Source of the DNA: Vitis vinifera
Lineage: Eukaryota; Streptophyta; Magnoliopsida; Vitales; Vitaceae
Direction of reading: 5' to 3'
Length of the DNA: 64,000 nucleotides
Assembly: GCF_030704535.1 (NCBI RefSeq)
Contig: NC_081806.1
Span: 5,891,501 to 5,955,500 of the forward strand
Positions 48,020 to 64,000 of this stretch are shown here, one piece after another. The number at the start of each line of letters is the position of its first letter. Positions within the stretch are counted from its first letter, which is position 1. A model generated the notes under the pieces. That model was not told the origin of the DNA. It did no database searches and saw only the letters and a program-made list of their open reading frames with translations. A program made the translations under genes and the position numbers.

Positions 48020-51000
48020 ATGACGACCAGTTTCGACGTTGCAGATTATCCAACTTTCCACGGCAGTGTTAGGAGAGCCACAATGGACAAAACTGCAATT
48101 ACCCTTGAAGCTATCAGCAAGGAGATTGTTGATCTGGTATTTATTTTACGTTTGTCACATTACTATCTTGCATTTCCTGGTAATATAATGCTGTGTATTA
48201 AGTTACAGAATAGGCTCTGGGTGTGGTTTTTCTGCTTCAGTAGTCAGTACCATCTGAAGTCTTCACAAGAGATTGTGGTATTATATATGCCTTTACTGGG
48301 TGACCACTTAGAACTCCTACTGTTCTTGGTAAACCACATAGCCCTCTTAGAGTAAAAATGTTATCTTTGTTTCTAAATCATGATCTCTTGTAAGTAATAT
48401 AGGGTAGTGTTCATTTTCCAAGTCTTCTTAGAGGATAGGCTCTATTTCTTGCTGCAAGTTGGGAATGGAGGCTTCTATTTTATTGAGATAAAATTGAATT
48501 ACATAGTTCAATATATATATTGTTCCTACTACGTTGGTGATATAAATTCTGTACTTCAGATAAGAAAAATTATTCATAGAACTGATTCAGTACTAGGTAT
48601 CCTAATATTTTCAACTCAATTTAACTTAACAAAGCCTTAATTCTTAATTCTAGCTACTTGGGCCAGGTGAATTCTCTTTTTTTTTTTTTCCCTAATAATG
48701 TCTATCTAGAGCCATGATGCATATATATCTTAGAACTGCAATACTGTTTTACTACATGGGTTGGAGGTTCCACCTTCAATTTTGATTAGGTGACTGCACC
48801 AATTTATAAGTCTCTGTTGGCAGGAGAACATCCCTCTTGAAGAAGTTTTTGAGAAATTAAAATGCACAAGAGAAGGTCTCGGCTTGGATGAGGTAGAGAA
48901 GCGATTGAAGGTGTTTGGGCACAACAAACTTGAAGAGAAAAAGGTCTCAACTTGTGTTCTTCTCTCTTCTCTAGTTATAGTCTTCCTCGTCACCTCTCAG
49001 AAGTTCAGTTTCATTTTTGGTCGAGTTCCCAACTTTTTCTTGATTTGTAGTTGGGTCATTTTCTTTTCAGGAAAATAAGATTATCAAATTTTTGGGATTT
49101 ATGTGGAATCCTCTCTCATGGGTTATGGAAGCAGCAGCAATCATGGCCATTTCTCTTGCACTTAAAGAGGTAAGTCTATAGATATCTATCTTACGTTGAT
49201 GTTGGAAATCCCCTTTTGAAGACACTTGATTGAACTGAACTCAGAGCCCAATCTTATCTTTTTTGACTGTTGCAAACGCTTTTTTGTACAGAATAAGGAT
49301 GTAGATTACATAACCTTTCTTGGCATTCTGGCACTGCATATTATCAATTCAGCCATCAGCTTTGTAGAGGAAAACAAAACTGGCAATGCTGTGGCTCGCC
49401 TTATGGCTTGGCTGGCTCCAAAAGCAACGGTTTACATTCTCACATTCTTTCAATCTTGGATTTTCCACCAACTATTTCAATCTATTGTTTCCATTACCCC
49501 ATCTAGACATCTTTCTGTATTTCTTGCCTTCAAAATGTCATCTGCTTCTTCAGGTTTTACGAGCTGGCAAATGGAGTAAGGAATATGCTTCTGTGTTGGT
49601 TCCTGGAGACATTGTCAGTATCAAACCAGGAGATATCATCCCTGCTGATGCACGTTTACTTGAAGGAGATCCTCTGAAAATTGATCAGGTATCTGATCAT
49701 GTTAAATTCTGAAACTAACTAATGAAGAATGTTTGAATCTGATTATGAATGTCTACTTTGCAGTCACTTGTTCTATATATCAGTTTGAGATGTGTGCACT
49801 TGAAGCTTGAATTGACGAGATAGGTAGTTTAGGACCTGAAATGAAGCTGAAAATGCCAGAATGGAATTGGAAATGATCTCTAACTTTCTACTTTTGTTCT
49901 TTGATCCTAATTTTCTCTGCAATCAGAGTGCTGTATTCAAGTCTATCACCAGTGTATATATAGGTGATAGCGCCTCGCTTACCAAGGCGTGGGCCCTTAT
50001 TGTAGAGGGGCTTCTAGTTTACTTTAATTTTCCCTATTAAAACATTTTTATTCTTGAAATTTATATAGTTTCATTACTTTTTTGTTGTCTGCTTATTTTA
50101 AATGTTGGAATCTTTATTTTTTTGTCGATTGGATTGAATTTTAAATCATATTTTATAAAATTGATGTGCATCATACTTAGCATTTCACTCCACTTAGGCA
50201 CACGCCTAGTGCCTAATCCCTAAGAGACTTTTGCGCCTTAGGTGTGTCTTGTACCTTTTAAAATTGTGGTTACCAGATTATTGGAAAATTTCTGTTCTAA
50301 CTGTTTCGGTCTCCTTAAATTCCCTTCCCAAGTTGCTTCTCTTCTATTCATATAGGCCCAAATAACGGCTGCCTCCAAGTCTCTCAGTTAAAAGAAAAGC
50401 CCATAAAAACAATTCTTTAGCTTCTAATGGTCATGCATCATTTGAAATGCTGGTTAATATCATCCAGTTGGTTAGCTGTGCTATTTCATTTTCCCCCAAG
50501 AAATTTATGATAAAAAAAAAAAAAAGGTGTCATTGTCTGTCTTAGATCTTCATAATTGCTACTGTAATTCTTTACTTTTCTTTCCTTTTCTTTCCTTTGC
50601 TCCCTTATGGTTAGGCAATCCCATACATTTTTAGATAAAATTTGGCCTCATGCCTAACATAATCCTTGTGTTACCAAGTGCTACTGTGGAATGGCATTAC
50701 TAATGACATGATTTTTATAGTTCATAGTGATAATTTCTTACAAAGGAAAAAACCATTAGTCTTTCTGGAGATACCTTAGGGTGATTTCAAATGGTCAAAA
50801 GATGCGTATGGATTATGTATATCCAGAAAAAGTGGGAGAATATTCATCCTTCTTGGGGCTGAGGAACCAAATACCAGATCTGACTGGCCTGATAAGGCAA
50901 CGCATTATCCAATTACACATTTTTTATCAGCAAAAGTATGCAACTTGTATTGGTCAGCACTCATCCTCAAAGAACTTGGCAGATCATCTTCTAAAAGAAA

Positions 51001-54000: not shown

Positions 54001-56741
54001 GTTGCATACACACATAAAAGTACCTCTCAAATTGAGAGGTTTTTCTAGTTAACCACCATTATCCTTGGTTCCTATGACAAAAGAGAAAAACATAGACTAG
54101 AGAAGAACAAGCTAGCCAAAAAAACAGATGATTCTGCAACTGCAGCAAAATGATGGTACTTTGATTTATAAAGAAGGGTGTGAATGTATATGAAGAAGTG
54201 GTTGTTTGATTGCTAGAGAAGGATCTAAGTTCTTTAGTCTTAGTTTAAGGCTCTCTTAGATTTGGTGTTGTGTTCATTGGTACTTAGAATTTCTTAGATA
54301 TCCTTTTGTACTTTCAAACACCTGTATTTGAAAGTAATCTTTCTCATGCCTTTTGACACGCCTCTTACCTTGGTGTCTTTGAGGACAACCGGTCTATCTT
54401 GACACAACTACAGTTTTTTTCATCAACTTCATCGTCACTATATCTACCTTAAACCAGGATGGCAATCCAATCTCTCCAAGTTTTACCAATCTTCTTTAGG
54501 AATTTTTTTCTCTCTAATTGAAATTGAAAATCGATACCTTACATGCACCATTATATATACCAAAAAGAAAAACATGCATCATGACTATGTCTCACATTGG
54601 ATCCTTTTTCAGGTGATCAAATGGCAATTGCTAAGGAGACTGGAAGACAACTTGGAATGGGCACAAACATGTACCCTTCATCATCTTTACTTGGTCATAA
54701 TAAGGATCAGTCTGTTGCAACCTTACCAGTTGATGAACTCATTGAGAAAGCTGATGGTTTTGCTGGTGTCTTTCCTGGTAAATATGCTGGTTATAAAATG
54801 TGAACATGTGAATCTTTTTGCACAACTATTTTTTATCCATTCTTCCATGCAGAACATAAGTACGAGATTGTGATGCAATTACAATCAAGAAAGCACATTG
54901 TTGGGTTGACGGGTTATGGAGTTAATGATGCACCTGCATTACAGAAAGCAGACATAGGATTTGCTGTGGCAGATTCAACAGATGCTGCTCGAGGTGCTTC
55001 TGACATAATACTGATACATCCTGGGCTAACTGCTATCATTAGTGCTGTATCAACCAGCCGCTCAATCATTCAAATGATGAAGACCTACTTGGTAAAAAGA
55101 GATTTTATTCTTTGAGGAAACTTCTCTTAACAAAAAAATTGTGCTTTATGACCATTAATGCTTAAAAGTTTCTTTTCCCCTTTTTTGTTCCCCAGATATA
55201 TGCAGTATCTATCACAATACATATTGTTGTAAGTTTCCTTTTTTATTTCATTTTCATTGGATTGAATATGGGAGTTTTATCATATGTGCCCACTTTAATG
55301 TTCATTTCTGATTGGCAACATGGGTTTTTTAACAGCTTGGTTTTCTGTTGCTGACTGCATTCTGGAAGTTTAATTTTCCTCCTTTCATGGTTCTCATTAT
55401 TGCCATTTTCAATGATGGTTAGTATTACTAGTCTCTTATGCTTCTATATTGTGTGATTCATGATGATTGACAATATTTTGTTTCCTTGTTTTATTCCCTA
55501 CTTACCCAACTTGATTACTTGTTTTCAGTTGCTATCATAGCTATATCCAAAGACAGGGTCAAGCCGTCTCCAGTTCCTGAGAGTTGGAAGCTCAGTGAAA
55601 TTTTTGTGACTGGGGTTGTCCTAGGAACTTACCTTGCCCTAATGACAGTTGTATTCTTCTGGGTAGCCTATGAAACCAGTTTCTTTGCGGTATAACCTCT
55701 CCACACCTTGATTTTAGGAAAAATTGTGAACTTACTCTTTATGAAGTAAAAAATGTCTAATTTGTGCAACCAATTTATTGCTCTTTACACTAATCATCTA
55801 GGAACAGACTTAAGTTTGCTGGCTAGTGAAACATGATTTAATTTCTTCATTTGTTACCTTCAGAAAATCTTCCACGTAACAAACTTCAACAAGCACCAGT
55901 ACAATCTCTCAGATGAGAAAACCTATGTTCATCTGTATGCACAGTTGGTATCTGCAGTGTTCCTTCAAGTTAGCATCATCAGCCAGGCTTTAATATTTGT
56001 CACTCGCTCCAGGGGCTGGTCTTTGAGGGAAAGACCTAGTTTTGTTCTTGTTAGTGCCTTTGTCCTCACTCAATGGGTAAACTAGTTTCCAACGTCTTCT
56101 TAATCTTCTGCTTCTACCTTGTACTGATTTTTTGCTGTGAACTATTAACGCTATCTATGTATATGTATATATGACAATATGTTGTGAACCTTGCATCATG
56201 TTTCTTACTAAGCTCCCTATGCAGGGTATGTTTTTGTTTATTTTTTGTTTTTCACTTGAGCAACTGTAATTCTTGCAGAGTGCAACTATGATATTTGCCA
56301 CAACATCAAGGGAAAATGCTGGGAATAGAAAGATTGACTGGGGTTGGATTGGTGTTATTTGGCTGTACAACATTGTTGTCTATATATTGCTGGATCCTAT
56401 CAAATTTGGTGTGCGACATGCAGTCAGTGGGAGAGTCTGGGGCCTGATGCTAGATCAAAGAGTGAGTTCCAAGTATCCTTTCTCATAACTTAACTGTTCC
56501 TTGATGAGAATTGAGTTGAGGTTGAAGGTTGAATGGGGTTTGATTTGCTCCTAGTGACTGTTCTCAATGGGATTGTTTCCAATTTTTGCTGTTTATATAT
56601 ATCTGAGTTTTGCCAATTTATATAATTTTCCAAAGGACATTCATCACCCAAAAGGACTCTGCTAAGGAAGCCCGCGAGGCTGCTGGGGCAGCTGATCAGC
56701 GGACACCTGATGGGCTTCAATCTACTTTGGGAGGAGATTAG
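48020..56741 (+). CDS. Divergent plasma-membrane H+-ATPase-like protein without R domain
   Basis: Twenty exons join in frame: 48020-48136, 48824-48943, 49071-49169, 49292-49429, 49554-49688, 51415-51594, 51790-51996, 52116-52235, 52677-52796, 53227-53349, 53446-53550, 53641-53785, 54613-54777, 54853-55091, 55196-55228, 55336-55417, 55529-55689, 55864-56076, 56279-56472 and 56636-56741; 933 residues, or 912 from the Met at 48083, which aligns better with family starts. It is a P3A pump: TGES (207-210), phosphorylation Asp354 in [21 protein letters not shown] and Asp709 (AHA2 Asp684) are kept. However TGDGVNDAP reads TGYGVNDAP (Tyr613), GIPIAMP reads GTPIFMP (309-315), and AHA2 Arg655 is His680. 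The protein stops just after QRTPDGLQ, so the autoinhibitory R domain and the terminal YTV 14-3-3 site are missing. Pumping is doubtful; the intact frame suggests recent decay or a changed role. Confidence 0.9.
49955..50290. repeat. Mobile-element remnant in ATPase-like intron 5
   Basis: GCGCCTCGCTTACCAAGGCG at the left and cacgcctagtgcctaat plus gcgccttaggtgtg at the right are inverted, aggc/gcct-rich ends around an AT-rich middle. Such text is common in plant introns as a diverged transposon. Exact ends and class are not determined. Confidence 0.4.
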
Positions 56742-57927: not shown

Positions 57928-60261
57928 TTAAACTGGTTGATGAAGACCCATCTTGATTGAATATTCAGCAGTCTTGAGGGCTTTATAGTCTCCCAATGAC
58001 TTTTGAACCTGGAGGTGGTTCTCTTTTTCCTTCTGACCATTCAGTTTCTTGGAGTTATGGATCTTTATGCTTATCAGTATTGCCACAATGAAAGCAAAGA
58101 TGCCAGTGATTAGGCCTGCATAGAGGGCATTTCTCAGTGAAATTAAATATAAATGGAATGTAAAATCATTGAGAACTGAATAGAGGGCATACCTATAACC
58201 AGATGCTTATTTGAAAAACCTGCAAATTAAGCCAATGGTTGAGGATTAGCATCATTTTGTACATCAAAAGCTTACATGTGTATTGCATCATAGGGTTTAT
58301 GACATCTCAAAGATGGGTGTTGGTTTTCTTTGTAGTAGTAAGACTATTCAGTGCCCAGTCAATTGTGCCAACTTGAGGAAAGTATGGAAGAAGTATCCTC
58401 TCATGCACATCATGGAACAGTCAGTGGAGTTAGGTCAATGGCTCCAACAGCCACGTACCTTTTGGTAGTTGAATGGTCTAGGTGAAGTTATTTTGTTCCT
58501 ATGCTGCTACTCTTTTTTTTTTTTTTTTTTCCTTGCGGATATACCCATATATGTTACTTTAATTTGTGTGTTAGTTAGCAAGAATTAGGGTGTTAATTTG
58601 TGTAAGTGGATCGTTTTCGTATCGTGTCAAAACACTAGTGCTCGATTAAACGGATTAACCTAAACAAGATGCAAATACAAATTAAAAAATATGAACAAAA
58701 ATATGATCTATTTATTCCAAGTCATATTTTGAACGAGTCAAAGTCAATTCAAGTCAAATCTATGTTATATAGGTTGCCTAAAAAATAATCTATTTATTAA
58801 ATAGGTTATGCAAGTATAATACGAATTTGTTCTAAATACGATCATACTTAATTAAAATTTAAAAAGAAAAAAAGTGTCAGATTTATTCTCTTAAATGGTG
58901 AATCTGATCAAAATTTGTCACCCCGGAAAACACGAATAGATCAAACCTGTTAGAGTAGGGGTGTGGTTTTCTTTTTCTTGTGGCTTTCTCAGTTTGAAAA
59001 GGAGCACAACTACAAGGCTGATAACTTGGAGTATGGTATAAATTGCTTTGGTCCCTAGTTCACTATACAAGGAAAAAAAATTCTCATAGCTATTTGGGAA
59101 GAATTTAATGGCTCGAATTGCCCTTGGCAGCTGGTTCTACTTTTCAAGACTTATCCCCTTCCACCTACTGAAATAAATAGCTGAATTTGAAGTTGATGGA
59201 GACAATCAGACAACTACTCCAATCAACTTGGGCAAATTTGATGTGATCCATAAATTAAGGCTTAGAGATGAGAAAAGGCCTTTGGCCTCACGCTAGAATT
59301 AACATTGACTTTACGCTAAAGAACAGGAACATCAATCTTCTTTGTTTGCCATTTACAGTGATCAAATTCTCATATACCCCTTAAACAACTGGACAATTGA
59401 ACATGTGAACTCTGATACACATTTTGAAATTTCATGAGATATCCTGTTAGTAGTCTATTCCATCAGATGTTTCAATGAATAGCCCATCATGTTTATTTAC
59501 AAACAAAAAAATGTATATGATGGAGAGAAGAATGGATCATTCAAGGCAAGAGTACTGAAAGGAACAAACCAAGATTTCTAAAGAATTTAAAGGGAAGATG
59601 AAATTCAAATACCTTTGTTAAAACAGCTGGTCTGATCCCCTGTTTTAGACTGCAAGTTGCAATGGCCTCCTTTCTCATTGCATCCAGGCAAGGTCCAAGT
59701 TAACCCGAGACCAAAGGTATTATCAGAGAGATAAGGACTGTAGGGAAATGGGATTGCAATTGTCTTCATAGGCATGCAAGAAAGTCTAGAAGCCGGAGAA
59801 GACTCGACAGTATAGACATGATACTGGGAGCCACTTAGGCATGGTACTGGTGCAAAAGAAGGCGAAAGCTGAGCTGAGCAATTGAGATATGTGTAGTTCT
59901 TGACATGATAGTAATACTGGAAGGGGGTGAGAGAGAGATTGAGATTAAGAAAGACCTCATGGACGCAGCTTTTCGGGTCAAGAAGGTTTAGTTTTTTCAT
60001 GTCATAAGATATGGATTGTATGACCAAGTCGCCATAAGATGGAAACTGAATCATGGTGCTGTTTTCTTTGCAAACCAGCTCGAAGCCTGGGTACCCGCAG
60101 TGTTGGGGCTGCTGGCCTTTGAGTCGAAAAGGGAACCGAATATCAGGAGCGCCATCACCACACTTGGCTGGTGGGCAAGTGGCATCAAAAGCTACAACAT
60201 GCAGAAAGATATCAGAGATGAGGATGAGGAAGACGAAGATGAAGGCTGCCATCAGCCTCAA
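57928..60261 (-). CDS. GUB_WAK ectodomain membrane protein without kinase or RING
   Basis: Three exons on the minus strand: 60261-59613, 58219-58193 and 58115-57928, exactly 287 residues plus stop with phase-1 joins. Residues 1-25 form a signal peptide. A Cys-rich GUB_WAK_bind domain follows (CPPAKCGDGAPDIRFPFRL, QHCGYPGFELVC, C-terminal LPGCNEKGGHC). One membrane helix (ITGIFAFIVAILISIKI) and a cytosolic tail of about 45 residues (KKLNGQKEKENHLQVQKSL) end the protein. The domain is thought to bind cell-wall pectin. In LRK10-like kinases and ATL20-22 RING proteins it is followed by a kinase or RING-H2; neither is seen here. It may be a truncated paralogue, a natural decoy or co-receptor, or the model may miss a downstream exon, although a stop follows the tail directly. 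Confidence 0.78.
58560..58965. repeat. Transposon-like repeat in intron 1 of the GUB_WAK gene
   Basis: This stretch carries cgtatcgtgtcaaaaca, attaaacggattaacctaaac and later caccccggaaaacacgaatag blocks. Such text is typical of diverged non-autonomous DNA elements with CGTGT-rich ends in plant genomes. No target duplication was found by eye. Confidence 0.35.
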
Positions 60262-60317
60262 CAGGATTGAGGATGGAATAAAATGGTAATGTTTGGTTCA
60301 AGTCGTCTTCCAGTACA

Positions 60318-61042: not shown

Positions 61043-62884
61043 TTACAGAAGATCCTTAGCTAGCTTCACTGGTTTTTCCTTTACAAATGCCATTTCACCA
61101 TTTGCTCCAGTCAGTAGGTGATGATCTGGCTCCTCCTCTTCGCTCTCTCCTGACGCAGATGACACCAAGGAAGCTGATTCGTCATCTGTTTTGCCATTGC
61201 ATTTAGACCATGGGAAAAAAATTGTCAGCAACATACATGTTATAAAATATATATTTAGAAGGCATTTTTTTCTCTTTTTTTTGGCCTATACAGAATATAT
61301 ATTTACAAGCCATTTTTCTTTTCCTATTTTTTTTTCTTTTCTTTTCTTGGATAAACACAACTTCAACAACAACTGACGAAGCAGCCCCCAACAACAAAAC
61401 CACACGCTTCCCCCTCAGCCCCCACCCAAAGAACCTTTAAAAAATAAAGGGAAAAAAATCAGAGGGAGAGAGATTCTCCAGTTCAGTGGAGCACATGTTC
61501 AATAATGACAGGAGACCAACGTAAGGCTCTTAACATACAGAATTATGTGTGCTAAGGATCCACAACAATCCATGAACTTTGCAATATCCCAAAACTTTTC
61601 CTACTCCACTATTCATGACTATATTGAACTTTTGACTTATGGAAATAAAGCATGCAGGTTGGTCCTTTAATTTCAATGGATTATAATTCCTATCCAATGC
61701 CTAACAAGGCTCTTAGGTAAGAGGATCAATATTACAATATAATAAAGCTATGGTTTAGCATATCACATGAAAACTTCTCGTCTTTCTTCTAATTTTTCCT
61801 TCTTAAGGTTCAAATGTATAGCAAAATATAGGTGTATATATCTTTCTTTTTTTTTCCTTTTTCTTTTTGATAGTAACATAAGGTATAAAATACAGGTTAA
61901 TTCCACGCATCTCTAGGCTGCATCAGCTCCATTCTCTGATATGATACGACTTGAATGGATATAAAGAATGTGGTAGATGCAGCAGATTTCAAATTTCCGT
62001 GTCAACTAGGGTTGACTAATAATTGACAAGCAGGTCTTAATCTTGATCATCCAATTTTGAGCAAAATTATATTACAGAGAGAAGCACAAAATACATAACC
62101 TAAACCAGGTAGCTTAGAACAACAAGCTTACCAGAATAGATAGGATGATCGGGTAGATGTCTAATTGCCGTAGCTTGAATACTTTCCGGCAGCAGACAAT
62201 TGCAAAATGAACCTGAAACTTCAAACAGCTCTCAAATTAGATAAAAAGGCAACACTAATCAACACCGGCCACAAGATGTGAGGTCAAGGAGTGCAAGCAG
62301 CTACATAAGTTGCTTAGATCATTACCCCTCCATATATCCATTGCCAGAATGACATGGAACTACCAGAATATATGAGATCTTTGGCAGCTATTCTTTAGAG
62401 GATCTTTTCTTAAATGTTTAAAAGTAAAAACACTTGCTCAAAAATTGATTGATATTAGAAAATTGCAGAGCTACAGGGTTGGTTTCACACCCATAACCAA
62501 CACTTAAATAAATCTGTAACAAGAATAGTGTGGATATGCAATTTACCATGATCACCAGATAATCTATATGAACAAACAACAGACCTTCCAACTTACCAAA
62601 TCGGGCTAATCGATTCACCCATCCAGGAATAGGTTTGCCAGTGAGACGAAGGCAAACTTCATCAGTAAAATGGTTGCAATTTTTAGCAATCAAATGATAA
62701 GTATCCCCATGATATTTTCCAGAAAGGTGCTCCATGAATGACCGAAATTCTGCACGAGACATGTCAGTGCTGCCCAACATGACTGACCGTCTGAAGATAA
62801 AGCCCGGGCAACTTCTTGGTTCCACCTCAAACACTCCACTAGTTGGGTATTCATGTGCTCCATATCCATACTCCATACCATGTA
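61043..62884 (-). CDS. DeSI-like PPPDE peptidase, 3' part
   Basis: Three 3' exons on the minus strand: 62884-62597, 62212-62132 and 61185-61043, in frame. The visible part begins within the PPPDE domain (HGMEYGYGAHEYPTSGVFEVEPR), continues with the catalytic Cys in AKNCNHFTDEVC, then LTGKPIPGWVNRLARFG, SFCNCLLPESI and an acidic tail ending KLAKDLL. The family (plant deSI-like At4g17486 type; animal DESI1/2) are papain-fold cysteine isopeptidases that cut SUMO or ubiquitin. The N-terminal exon or exons with the catalytic His lie beyond 64000, because no matching exon is seen in 62885-64000. The gene is therefore partial in this window. Confidence 0.9.
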
Positions 62885-64000
62885 CTGCTTATCAAATTAG
62901 ACACAAAATCTTCTGTTAATGCACTGTAGGAATTTAAAAATGGAAATATGGAGAAAATCAGCAGCACATGTTCACCATATAATGTGAAAAGCTTGCCATA
63001 ATTTAAACTAGGAGCTTTAAACTTCACATACAAAAATGGTCAAAAAGTGTATCCTTCTACCGTTAAACACATGCAACCCTGAATTACAGTCAATTTTCTG
63101 TGACATAATGGATTGTAATCTAACATCATGATTGCTAGGATGTGAAGTGGCATCTGAGCTTTGATGGCTAGGTATGAAATTGTATGGATGAGTCATCAAA
63201 CATTCTAGATTTGGTATTCATACCAAAGTTGAGAAGGGTTTATGAGGACCCTTATTGACTAAACTTGATATAATAACAATTTAAATAGAAGCAGTCAAAT
63301 TTCACATACAATCGTAGGTTGACAAGGGTCCCCATCCAGTATTAAAGAAATGGCACCTAAAATTGTGGTCATTGCAGTGACGTCATGGATTGTAATCTAA
63401 CATCATGATTGCTAGGATGTGACTGCCCCATTTTTTATGGTCAGGGGTGAATTATGTATGGATTAGTCATATAACATTCTAGATTTGGTATTTATACCAA
63501 AATTGAGAAATCCTTATAAGAATAAGGGTGAATTGTGTATGGGTGAGTGAGTCATCAAACATTCTGGATTTTGTATTCATTCAAAGTTGAGAAAGGTTTA
63601 TGAGGACACTTATGGAATAAGTATCTGATTTGAAGTGACATTGCACCTAGATATCAAACATGACCCATCAATGCCTTTTTCCGTTGCATCTAATAAGCAC
63701 CATCTAAGTTCAAACCTGAATGATATCATAGGTTTCGCTCAAATAAGGCATTTTAGATTTGTCATCCAAATCCCCAATACCTAGGCAACTAGACACTGAT
63801 AGAATTAATTACTAATTATTTTAATAAAATAAATGAGAGGAAGATAGTTCCCCAAGTGAGATAAGTTTTGAAGTTCAATTTTTGGCCACAAAAAATCCCC
63901 TCAATTTGCAATTAAGGTGTCAAAAGACACTCAAACACCATTCTCAAGACACTGCAGAGGAAAAGTCCGGATTTCTTTACATCACTAAGAAATCACTAAT
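62885..64000 (-). other. Intron of the DeSI-like gene (runs off the window)
   Basis: No exon with the expected PPPDE N-terminal sequence was seen. It contains the direct repeats at 63102-63620. Confidence 0.5.
63102..63620. repeat. Direct repeats with about 277-bp period
   Basis: A block (tggattgtaatctaacatca then tgattgctaggatgtga, atggat.agtcat..aacattctagatttggtat) occurs at 63108-63245 and again at 63385-63510. A partial third copy (gtgagtcatcaaacattctgg) lies at about 63545-63610. This is a local duplication within the DeSI-like intron. Confidence 0.8.

Follow-up and report, generated by a model that had tools for sequence, protein, structure and literature searches.

A plasma-membrane H+-ATPase copy on grape (Vitis vinifera) chromosome 2 very probably no longer catalyses proton pumping, judged from its sequence, and is tentatively read here as a retained non-pumping protein derived from a P3A H+-ATPase duplicate. 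The gene is one of three related H+-ATPase copies on this chromosome and lies in the window C2:5,891,501–5,955,500, the whole stretch of 64,000 nucleotides that was analysed. A retained non-pumping protein or a very recent demotion suits the data better than a plain pseudogene, which fits poorly because exons 1–19 are open where lesions are predicted and relics of comparable divergence are lesioned.

The spliced model of the window gene has 20 exons (Table 1) and gives 912 residues from the ATG at 48083 to the stop at 56741, or 933 residues from an upstream ATG at 48020. The ATG at 48083 (MDKTAI) is likely the true start. The 21 codons added by the upstream ATG are probably 5′ UTR, since the related copy at 5.99 Mb is frameshifted there and the one at 2.65 Mb has no ATG there. 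The window protein aligns with Arabidopsis AHA2 (5ksd) over residues 37–881 with a phmmer score of 1261 bits. It shows the Pfam domains E1-E2_ATPase and Cation_ATPase_N above cut-off, and Hydrolase at 25.3 bits falls just under its cut-off of 26.4. Homology across the N-terminus and the A, P, N and M domains marks the predicted product as a P3A plasma-membrane H+-ATPase by descent.

Table 1. Features of the H+-ATPase copy in the window (positions counted from the first nucleotide of the window)
Feature	Position	Strand	Basis
Exon 1	48020..48136	+	spliced model
Exons 2–13: N-terminus, M1–M4, A domain, P1, N domain, P2	48824..54777	+	spliced model, all GT/AG; AHA2 5ksd alignment
Exon 14 with TGYGVNDAP	54853..55091	+	spliced model
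Tyr codon TAT, equivalent of AHA2 Asp588 / yeast Pma1 Asp634	54915..54917	+	alignment with relatives
Exons 15–19: M5–M10, with Arg655His, Asp684 unchanged and Gly685Val	55196..56472	+	spliced model, AHA2 alignment
Ancestral exon-19 donor GT (GTGAGT), still there	56462..56463	+	alignment with 5.99-Mb copy
New donor GT (GTATCC, where the two sisters have ATATCC)	56473..56474	+	alignment with chromosome-2 copies
Lost exon-20 acceptor: AA here, AG in 5.99-Mb copy	56632..56633	+	alignment with 5.99-Mb copy
Exon 20 as modelled	56636..56741	+	alignment with 5.99-Mb copy

A first-pass annotation of this DNA had noted TGYGVNDAP in place of TGDGVNDAP, and comparison with relatives bears this out. The codon is TAT in the window gene. 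The 5.99-Mb copy shares GAT (Asp) with all seven presumed working grape copies, and the 2.65-Mb copy has AAT. The Tyr was said to replace the catalytic Mg-site Asp, and by phmmer the codon does align with Asp588 of AHA2 (5ksd) and Asp634 of yeast Pma1 (7vh5), residue numbers being counted by hand on the alignment. A passage in PMC7435182 names Asp588 as an ATP-binding site. A single G>T change separates the codon from the GAT of the nearest copy, and the 18-base motif at the site occurs a single time in the genome (exact search, 495.6 Mb, 21 contigs). The phosphorylation Asp is kept, as had also been claimed (DKTG in P1; residue 354 counted from the upstream ATG).

The window gene also keeps TGES, KGAP in the N domain, MITGD in P2, and the equivalents of Asn106 and Asp684. 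Lost are, in AHA2 numbering, Asp588 (Tyr), Arg655 (His) and Gly685 (Val), and also the DPPR of P2, which reads DLPR (P513L) and which belongs to the P-type ATPase motifs listed in Table 1 of PMC6985207. The description of the gene as having a single active-site loss does not hold, as 70 of the 576 positions that are the same across the seven copies are replaced on the window branch, Asp588Tyr, Arg655His and DPPR to DLPR included. An active pump that tolerates Tyr would be very improbable: the retained motifs and residues suit it, but Asp occupies the site in the aligned AHA2, in both aligned fungal pumps and in the seven grape copies, 69 further invariant sites are changed, and even the D634N substitution of yeast Pma1 is listed as dominant lethal in a section of PMC3692421. 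Even less credible is an assembly or base-calling error at the Tyr codon. A single genome and a single G>T change leave room for such an error, but the window branch has 194 resolved base changes, the Tyr change among them, and the latter thus is no isolated oddity.

The earlier statement that all 20 exons are open with consensus splicing is correct for exons 1–19, but fails at the exon 19/20 junction, which uses a new donor and has lost the ancestral acceptor. This junction is modelled with the donor GTATCC because the ancestral acceptor AG has turned to AA; the nearest AG is now at 56634–56635. Were the ancestral donor at 56462 paired with the shifted acceptor, the frame would stop nine further codons on. 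Exon 20 as modelled has lost 29 bp, not a multiple of three, between 56725 and 56726, and its shifted frame runs into a TAG stop at 56739–56741. The frame stops ahead of the regulatory (autoinhibitory) R domain, and downstream of the window gene, up to 59000, blastn detects nothing that corresponds to the R-domain exons of the 5.99-Mb copy. Either junction leaves exon 19 and its M10 whole and gives a product that lacks the R domain.

A search of the genome with exon 14 gave 49 matches, after which 18 stretches were taken and nine P3A copies were modelled besides the window gene. A copy at C9:0.17 Mb with an intact TGDGVNDAP was omitted since its 5′ half is not in the retrieved sequence. Seven of the nine carry GAT at the site, keep the other checked motifs and serve here as the presumed working reference set; the remaining two both lie on chromosome 2, at 5.99 Mb and 2.65 Mb. 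The H+-ATPase copies match published VvPMA genes closely on chromosomes 4, 9 and 11 (7.1 Mb), and within 0.4 Mb on chromosome 17. The coordinates of the three remaining VvPMA genes are garbled as printed in Table 1 of PMC5399082, the part of that survey compared here; their chromosomes 11, 14 and 15 also hold copies. Frameshifts placed near residues 762–770 in the chromosome-4 copy and both chromosome-11 copies are taken as aligner artefacts of the longer query loop. Residues 759–793 are masked in the trees, in the branch, partition, segment and one-switch fits and in the joint chance given below, and are unmasked in the invariant-site count (70/576) and the 784-codon base-change counts.

The 5.99-Mb copy (L032+L033, C2:5.98–6.00 Mb, minus strand) lies about 40 kb away, measured between its exon 14 and that of the window gene. 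It keeps TGDGVNDAP, the checked catalytic motifs and an R domain ending in HYTL, and its frame is broken twice, by a 2-nt frameshift within exon 14 and by a TAA stop within exon 17. It shows one P-domain replacement and a dN/dS of 0.32, and this low ratio suggests that it may have worked as a pump until recently. A segment of about 245 bp in intron 1 of the window gene (window 48173–48415) matches the 3′ flank of the 5.99-Mb copy at 88% and may have moved or inserted.

The 2.65-Mb copy (L048+L040, C2:2.64–2.66 Mb) reads NKTG, the phosphorylation Asp being replaced by Asn, and TGNGVTDAP. The equivalent of Asn106 is Asp and that of Asp684 is His. Exon 18 carries an in-frame insertion of 6 nt. 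The frame is open through M10 to codon 868, ahead of a stop at 869, with canonical splice dinucleotides and no R domain in frame. By its predicted sequence this is a second active-site-dead yet open H+-ATPase copy. It is like the window gene in its dead active site, in being open through M10 with no in-frame R domain and in its N-domain constraint, but it differs in its catalytic losses, its codon-869 stop, its 6-nt insertion and a more constrained P domain.

The trees group the three chromosome-2 copies with support of 100, and within this group the window gene pairs with the 2.65-Mb copy (support 94 and 97). A chromosome-15 copy (C15:15.3 Mb), the nearest presumed working copy to the window gene, branches directly outside, and it shares with the chromosome-2 group a longer loop after M7. 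A longer loop of this kind is presumably also a feature of AHA7, and we take the chromosome-15 copy to be of AHA7 type. The M7–M8 loop of AHA7 senses external pH, according to a passage in a review (PMC8657649). The chromosome-15 copy resembles the window gene in exon plan, in the post-M7 loop and in amino acid sequence (76% identity over 836 codons), but unlike it keeps TGDGVNDAP, Arg655, DPPR and a full R domain.

Selection on the window branch was estimated from 836 codons of six copies under three topologies, with a codon likelihood model of our own. The branch shows a dN/dS of 0.80 on the best topology, and 0.88 on the second. The value of 0.80 is indistinguishable from 1 (2ΔlnL 1.4) and far above the background of 0.045 (ΔlnL 116); thus pump constraint is gone over most of the branch. 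By segment, dN/dS is 0.29 (0.1–0.6) in the N-terminus, 1.13 in M1–M2, 0.71 in A, 1.66 in M3–M4, 0.51 in P1, 0.25 (0.15–0.4) in the N domain, 0.76 in P2, 0.81 in M5–M6 and 1.25 in M7–M10. Neutrality is rejected on the low side in the N-terminus (2ΔlnL 8.8) and the N domain (22.4) only. The N-terminus and N domain of the window gene are constrained, and little constraint is left on the membrane and P domains. The segment fits use plug-in branch lengths fixed from the branch fit, approximate outer-branch lengths and our own aligner, and their p-values are rough because of these fixed and approximate lengths. The 2.65-Mb copy shows 0.25 in N, 1.34 in M3–M4 and 1.58 in M5–M6, and its P2 (0.29) and M7–M10 (0.44) are constrained too. 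A four-partition fit favours uneven dN/dS on both branches (lnL −9208.2 vs −9235.5, 6 extra parameters).

A one-switch model, in which the window copy passes from constrained to neutral, gives a best neutral fraction of 0.75 (0.65–0.90), and fits worse than free segments (2ΔlnL 28, 8 df, p about 4–5e-4). The first-pass annotation had offered a very young pseudogene or a pseudoenzyme. Pump catalysis is indeed very likely lost, but the dN/dS of 0.80 and the neutral fraction of 0.75 lend no support to the words "very young". Uniform neutral decay of the window gene is rejected on the N-domain constraint. Gene conversion as the source of N-domain conservation is likewise rejected, since conversion would also lower synonymous change there, and the 11 N-domain synonymous changes are 0.99 of expected. 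Positive selection in the membrane domain is not claimed: M3–M4 at 1.66 is borderline (2ΔlnL 4.0), and the pooled membrane segments (dN/dS 1.25) are indistinguishable from 1 (2ΔlnL 1.1). Replacements on the window branch are a little more conservative than those drawn under neutrality (BLOSUM62 averages −0.11 against −0.38; 3.3% of draws). They strike invariant and variable sites alike, 70/533 vs 43/248 in the 784-codon count (p 0.13) and 70/576 vs 43/293 in a larger site set, a pattern like that of a dead gene. In 2,633 exon bases 167 changes are unique to the branch, and its exons have taken up substitutions at 83% of the rate seen in introns (0.0634 vs 0.0767).

No stops, indels or lost splice dinucleotides are found in exons 1–19 and introns 1–18 of the window gene, where every GT and AG is kept. 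With 66 synonymous and 127 replacement base changes resolved on the branch in 784 codons, the neutral expectation for in-frame stops is 10.2 when based on the former and 7.0 when based on the latter. One "stop" in the tally of the window copy reflects a single-base path through a doubly changed codon that is in fact sense; the stops of the 5.99-Mb and 2.65-Mb copies are aligned as inserted codons and are absent from their stop counts. The window-branch introns show 26 indels per 4,486 three-way aligned bases, so 15.3 would be expected in the exons, or 5.9 outside simple repeats, and none is seen. Non-triplet indels outside simple repeats are expected 3.5 times in exons and seen 0 times (P(0) = 0.03). 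At a neutral fraction of 0.75 about 16 core lesions are expected and 0 seen, with a joint chance of ~1e-7, a value that treats the three counts as independent and is unadjusted for the gene having been picked for its open frame. These counts lend statistical support to selection having kept the frame.

As controls, three pump relics in the same genome were aligned by tblastn with the window protein as query. L043 (C15:17.25 Mb) shows 3 stops in 430 aligned codons, L045 (C15:17.30 Mb) 7 stops in 436, 5 of them past a frameshift, and L044 (C2:1.37 Mb) 4 stops in 302 as well as a change of frame. Between L044 and its likely parent there are 56 mismatches in an 846-column alignment, and L043 and L045 differ from a chromosome-9 copy by about 2–10%, piece by piece. 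These relics are comparable in divergence to the window gene, yet carry stops or frameshifts. Over the matched stretch all three are without the introns of working copies, and L043 and L045 share the odd motif TKDGMNNA.

These counts bear on a plain pseudogene, neutral since early after duplication and still open through chance or through recurrent conversion by a functional neighbour, which we consider improbable. The first-pass annotation had taken a dN/dS near 1 against paralogues, together with a lack of expression, as the mark of such a gene, and the ratio is near 1 on average though not in every domain. The exon rate close to that of introns and the equal treatment of invariant and variable sites also accord with it. 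However, the N domain stands at 0.25 with neutrality rejected, the core lesions expected of such a gene are missing, and the undiminished N-domain synonymous change speaks against conversion.

A recently demoted gene is almost as likely as a retained pseudo-pump, in view of the invariant sites being hit like the variable ones, the exon rate and the chromosome-2 lesions. The window gene would then have been a rapidly evolving pump relative that still worked until recently and would now be a young pseudogene without function, with Asp588Tyr, the lost acceptor and the 29-bp deletion all late events. Such a history accounts jointly for the open frame and the fresh C-terminal lesions, and the neighbouring 5.99-Mb copy looks pump-like until lately and now has a frameshift and a stop. 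But the P segments of the window copy carry 26 replacements, DPPR to DLPR among them, against 1 in the 5.99-Mb copy, and this number hardly suits an ATPase that worked along most of the branch.

The retained non-pumping protein is favoured by the 2.65-Mb copy, which is also dead, open to codon 868 and shows the same N-domain contrast; the lesions in all three chromosome-2 copies, that of the window gene being at the C-terminal junction, count against it. The predicted product would be a ten-helix, ATP-binding, non-cycling membrane protein, held for some time for a non-pumping role, of which the likeliest would be that of a partner within mixed H+-ATPase oligomers. Loss of the Mg2+ Asp should block the cycle of phosphoryl transfer. 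The yeast allele Pma1 D634N, at the same position, is among the dominant lethal alleles listed in PMC3692421, where dominant lethal Pma1 proteins are described as hetero-oligomerising with the wild type and retaining it. Working AHA2 becomes more active when part of its R domain is removed, a 57-residue truncation supporting growth of yeast at a pH as low as 3.5 in results given in PMC9708826. Since partial R-domain loss raises activity in working AHA2, loss of the Asp and of the R domain together would be expected to yield an ungated, non-cycling subunit. A more specific proposal, that the window and 2.65-Mb genes encode pseudo-pumps, ten-helix P3A proteins without catalysis or R domain and with an N domain still under selection, and that these tune or restrain ordinary H+-ATPase oligomers as non-cycling partners, is unlikely as it stands. 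Expression of either chromosome-2 copy would make it a natural dead variant of the plant proton pump and a dominant-negative or scaffold candidate.

The same fold is expected for the window protein as for AHA2, from which it differs by Asp588Tyr, Arg655His, Gly685Val, DPPR to DLPR and the absent R domain. It resembles yeast Pma1 D634N in that the same catalytic Asp is struck and all ten helices are present; D634N and D378T are laboratory alleles with dominant effect, as described in PMC3692421, whereas the window gene is a natural copy known from sequence. A dead P-type relative as such is not new. A footnote (12) to a table in the plant survey PMC3355532 describes a P-type-ATPase-like protein judged an unlikely ATPase, with TGDG changed to TGMG and with cDNA support; unlike the window gene, it is also without the DKTGTLT stretch and has further core losses. 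The same survey lists pseudogenes besides this protein, and P-type pseudogenes are reported elsewhere, e.g. in barley in a passage of PMC10763278. TGYGVNDAP was not found in the literature searched, and a search by the words "P-type ATPase" and "pseudoenzyme" only found no paper with both. A published grape survey that used an 11-residue protein motif as probe reports seven genes, none on chromosome 2 in the portion considered (PMC5399082), and the sections considered of PMC4220414, PMC5854021 and PMC5623721 contain no chromosome-2 H+-ATPase. Family surveys built on an intact motif can miss copies such as the window gene.

Near-identical 35-residue H+-ATPase fragments (GMTGDGVNDAPAPKKADIG) are found at C16:7.73 Mb (L046) and C5:25.88 Mb (L047), each alone in a distant 10-kb stretch, as if borne by a mobile element. 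Further along the window, two open frames on the minus strand were assigned by eye: that at 59605–60297 presumably resembles the wall-associated extracellular part of a receptor kinase, and that at 62418–62888 we take to resemble an exon of a PPPDE/DeSI-type peptidase.
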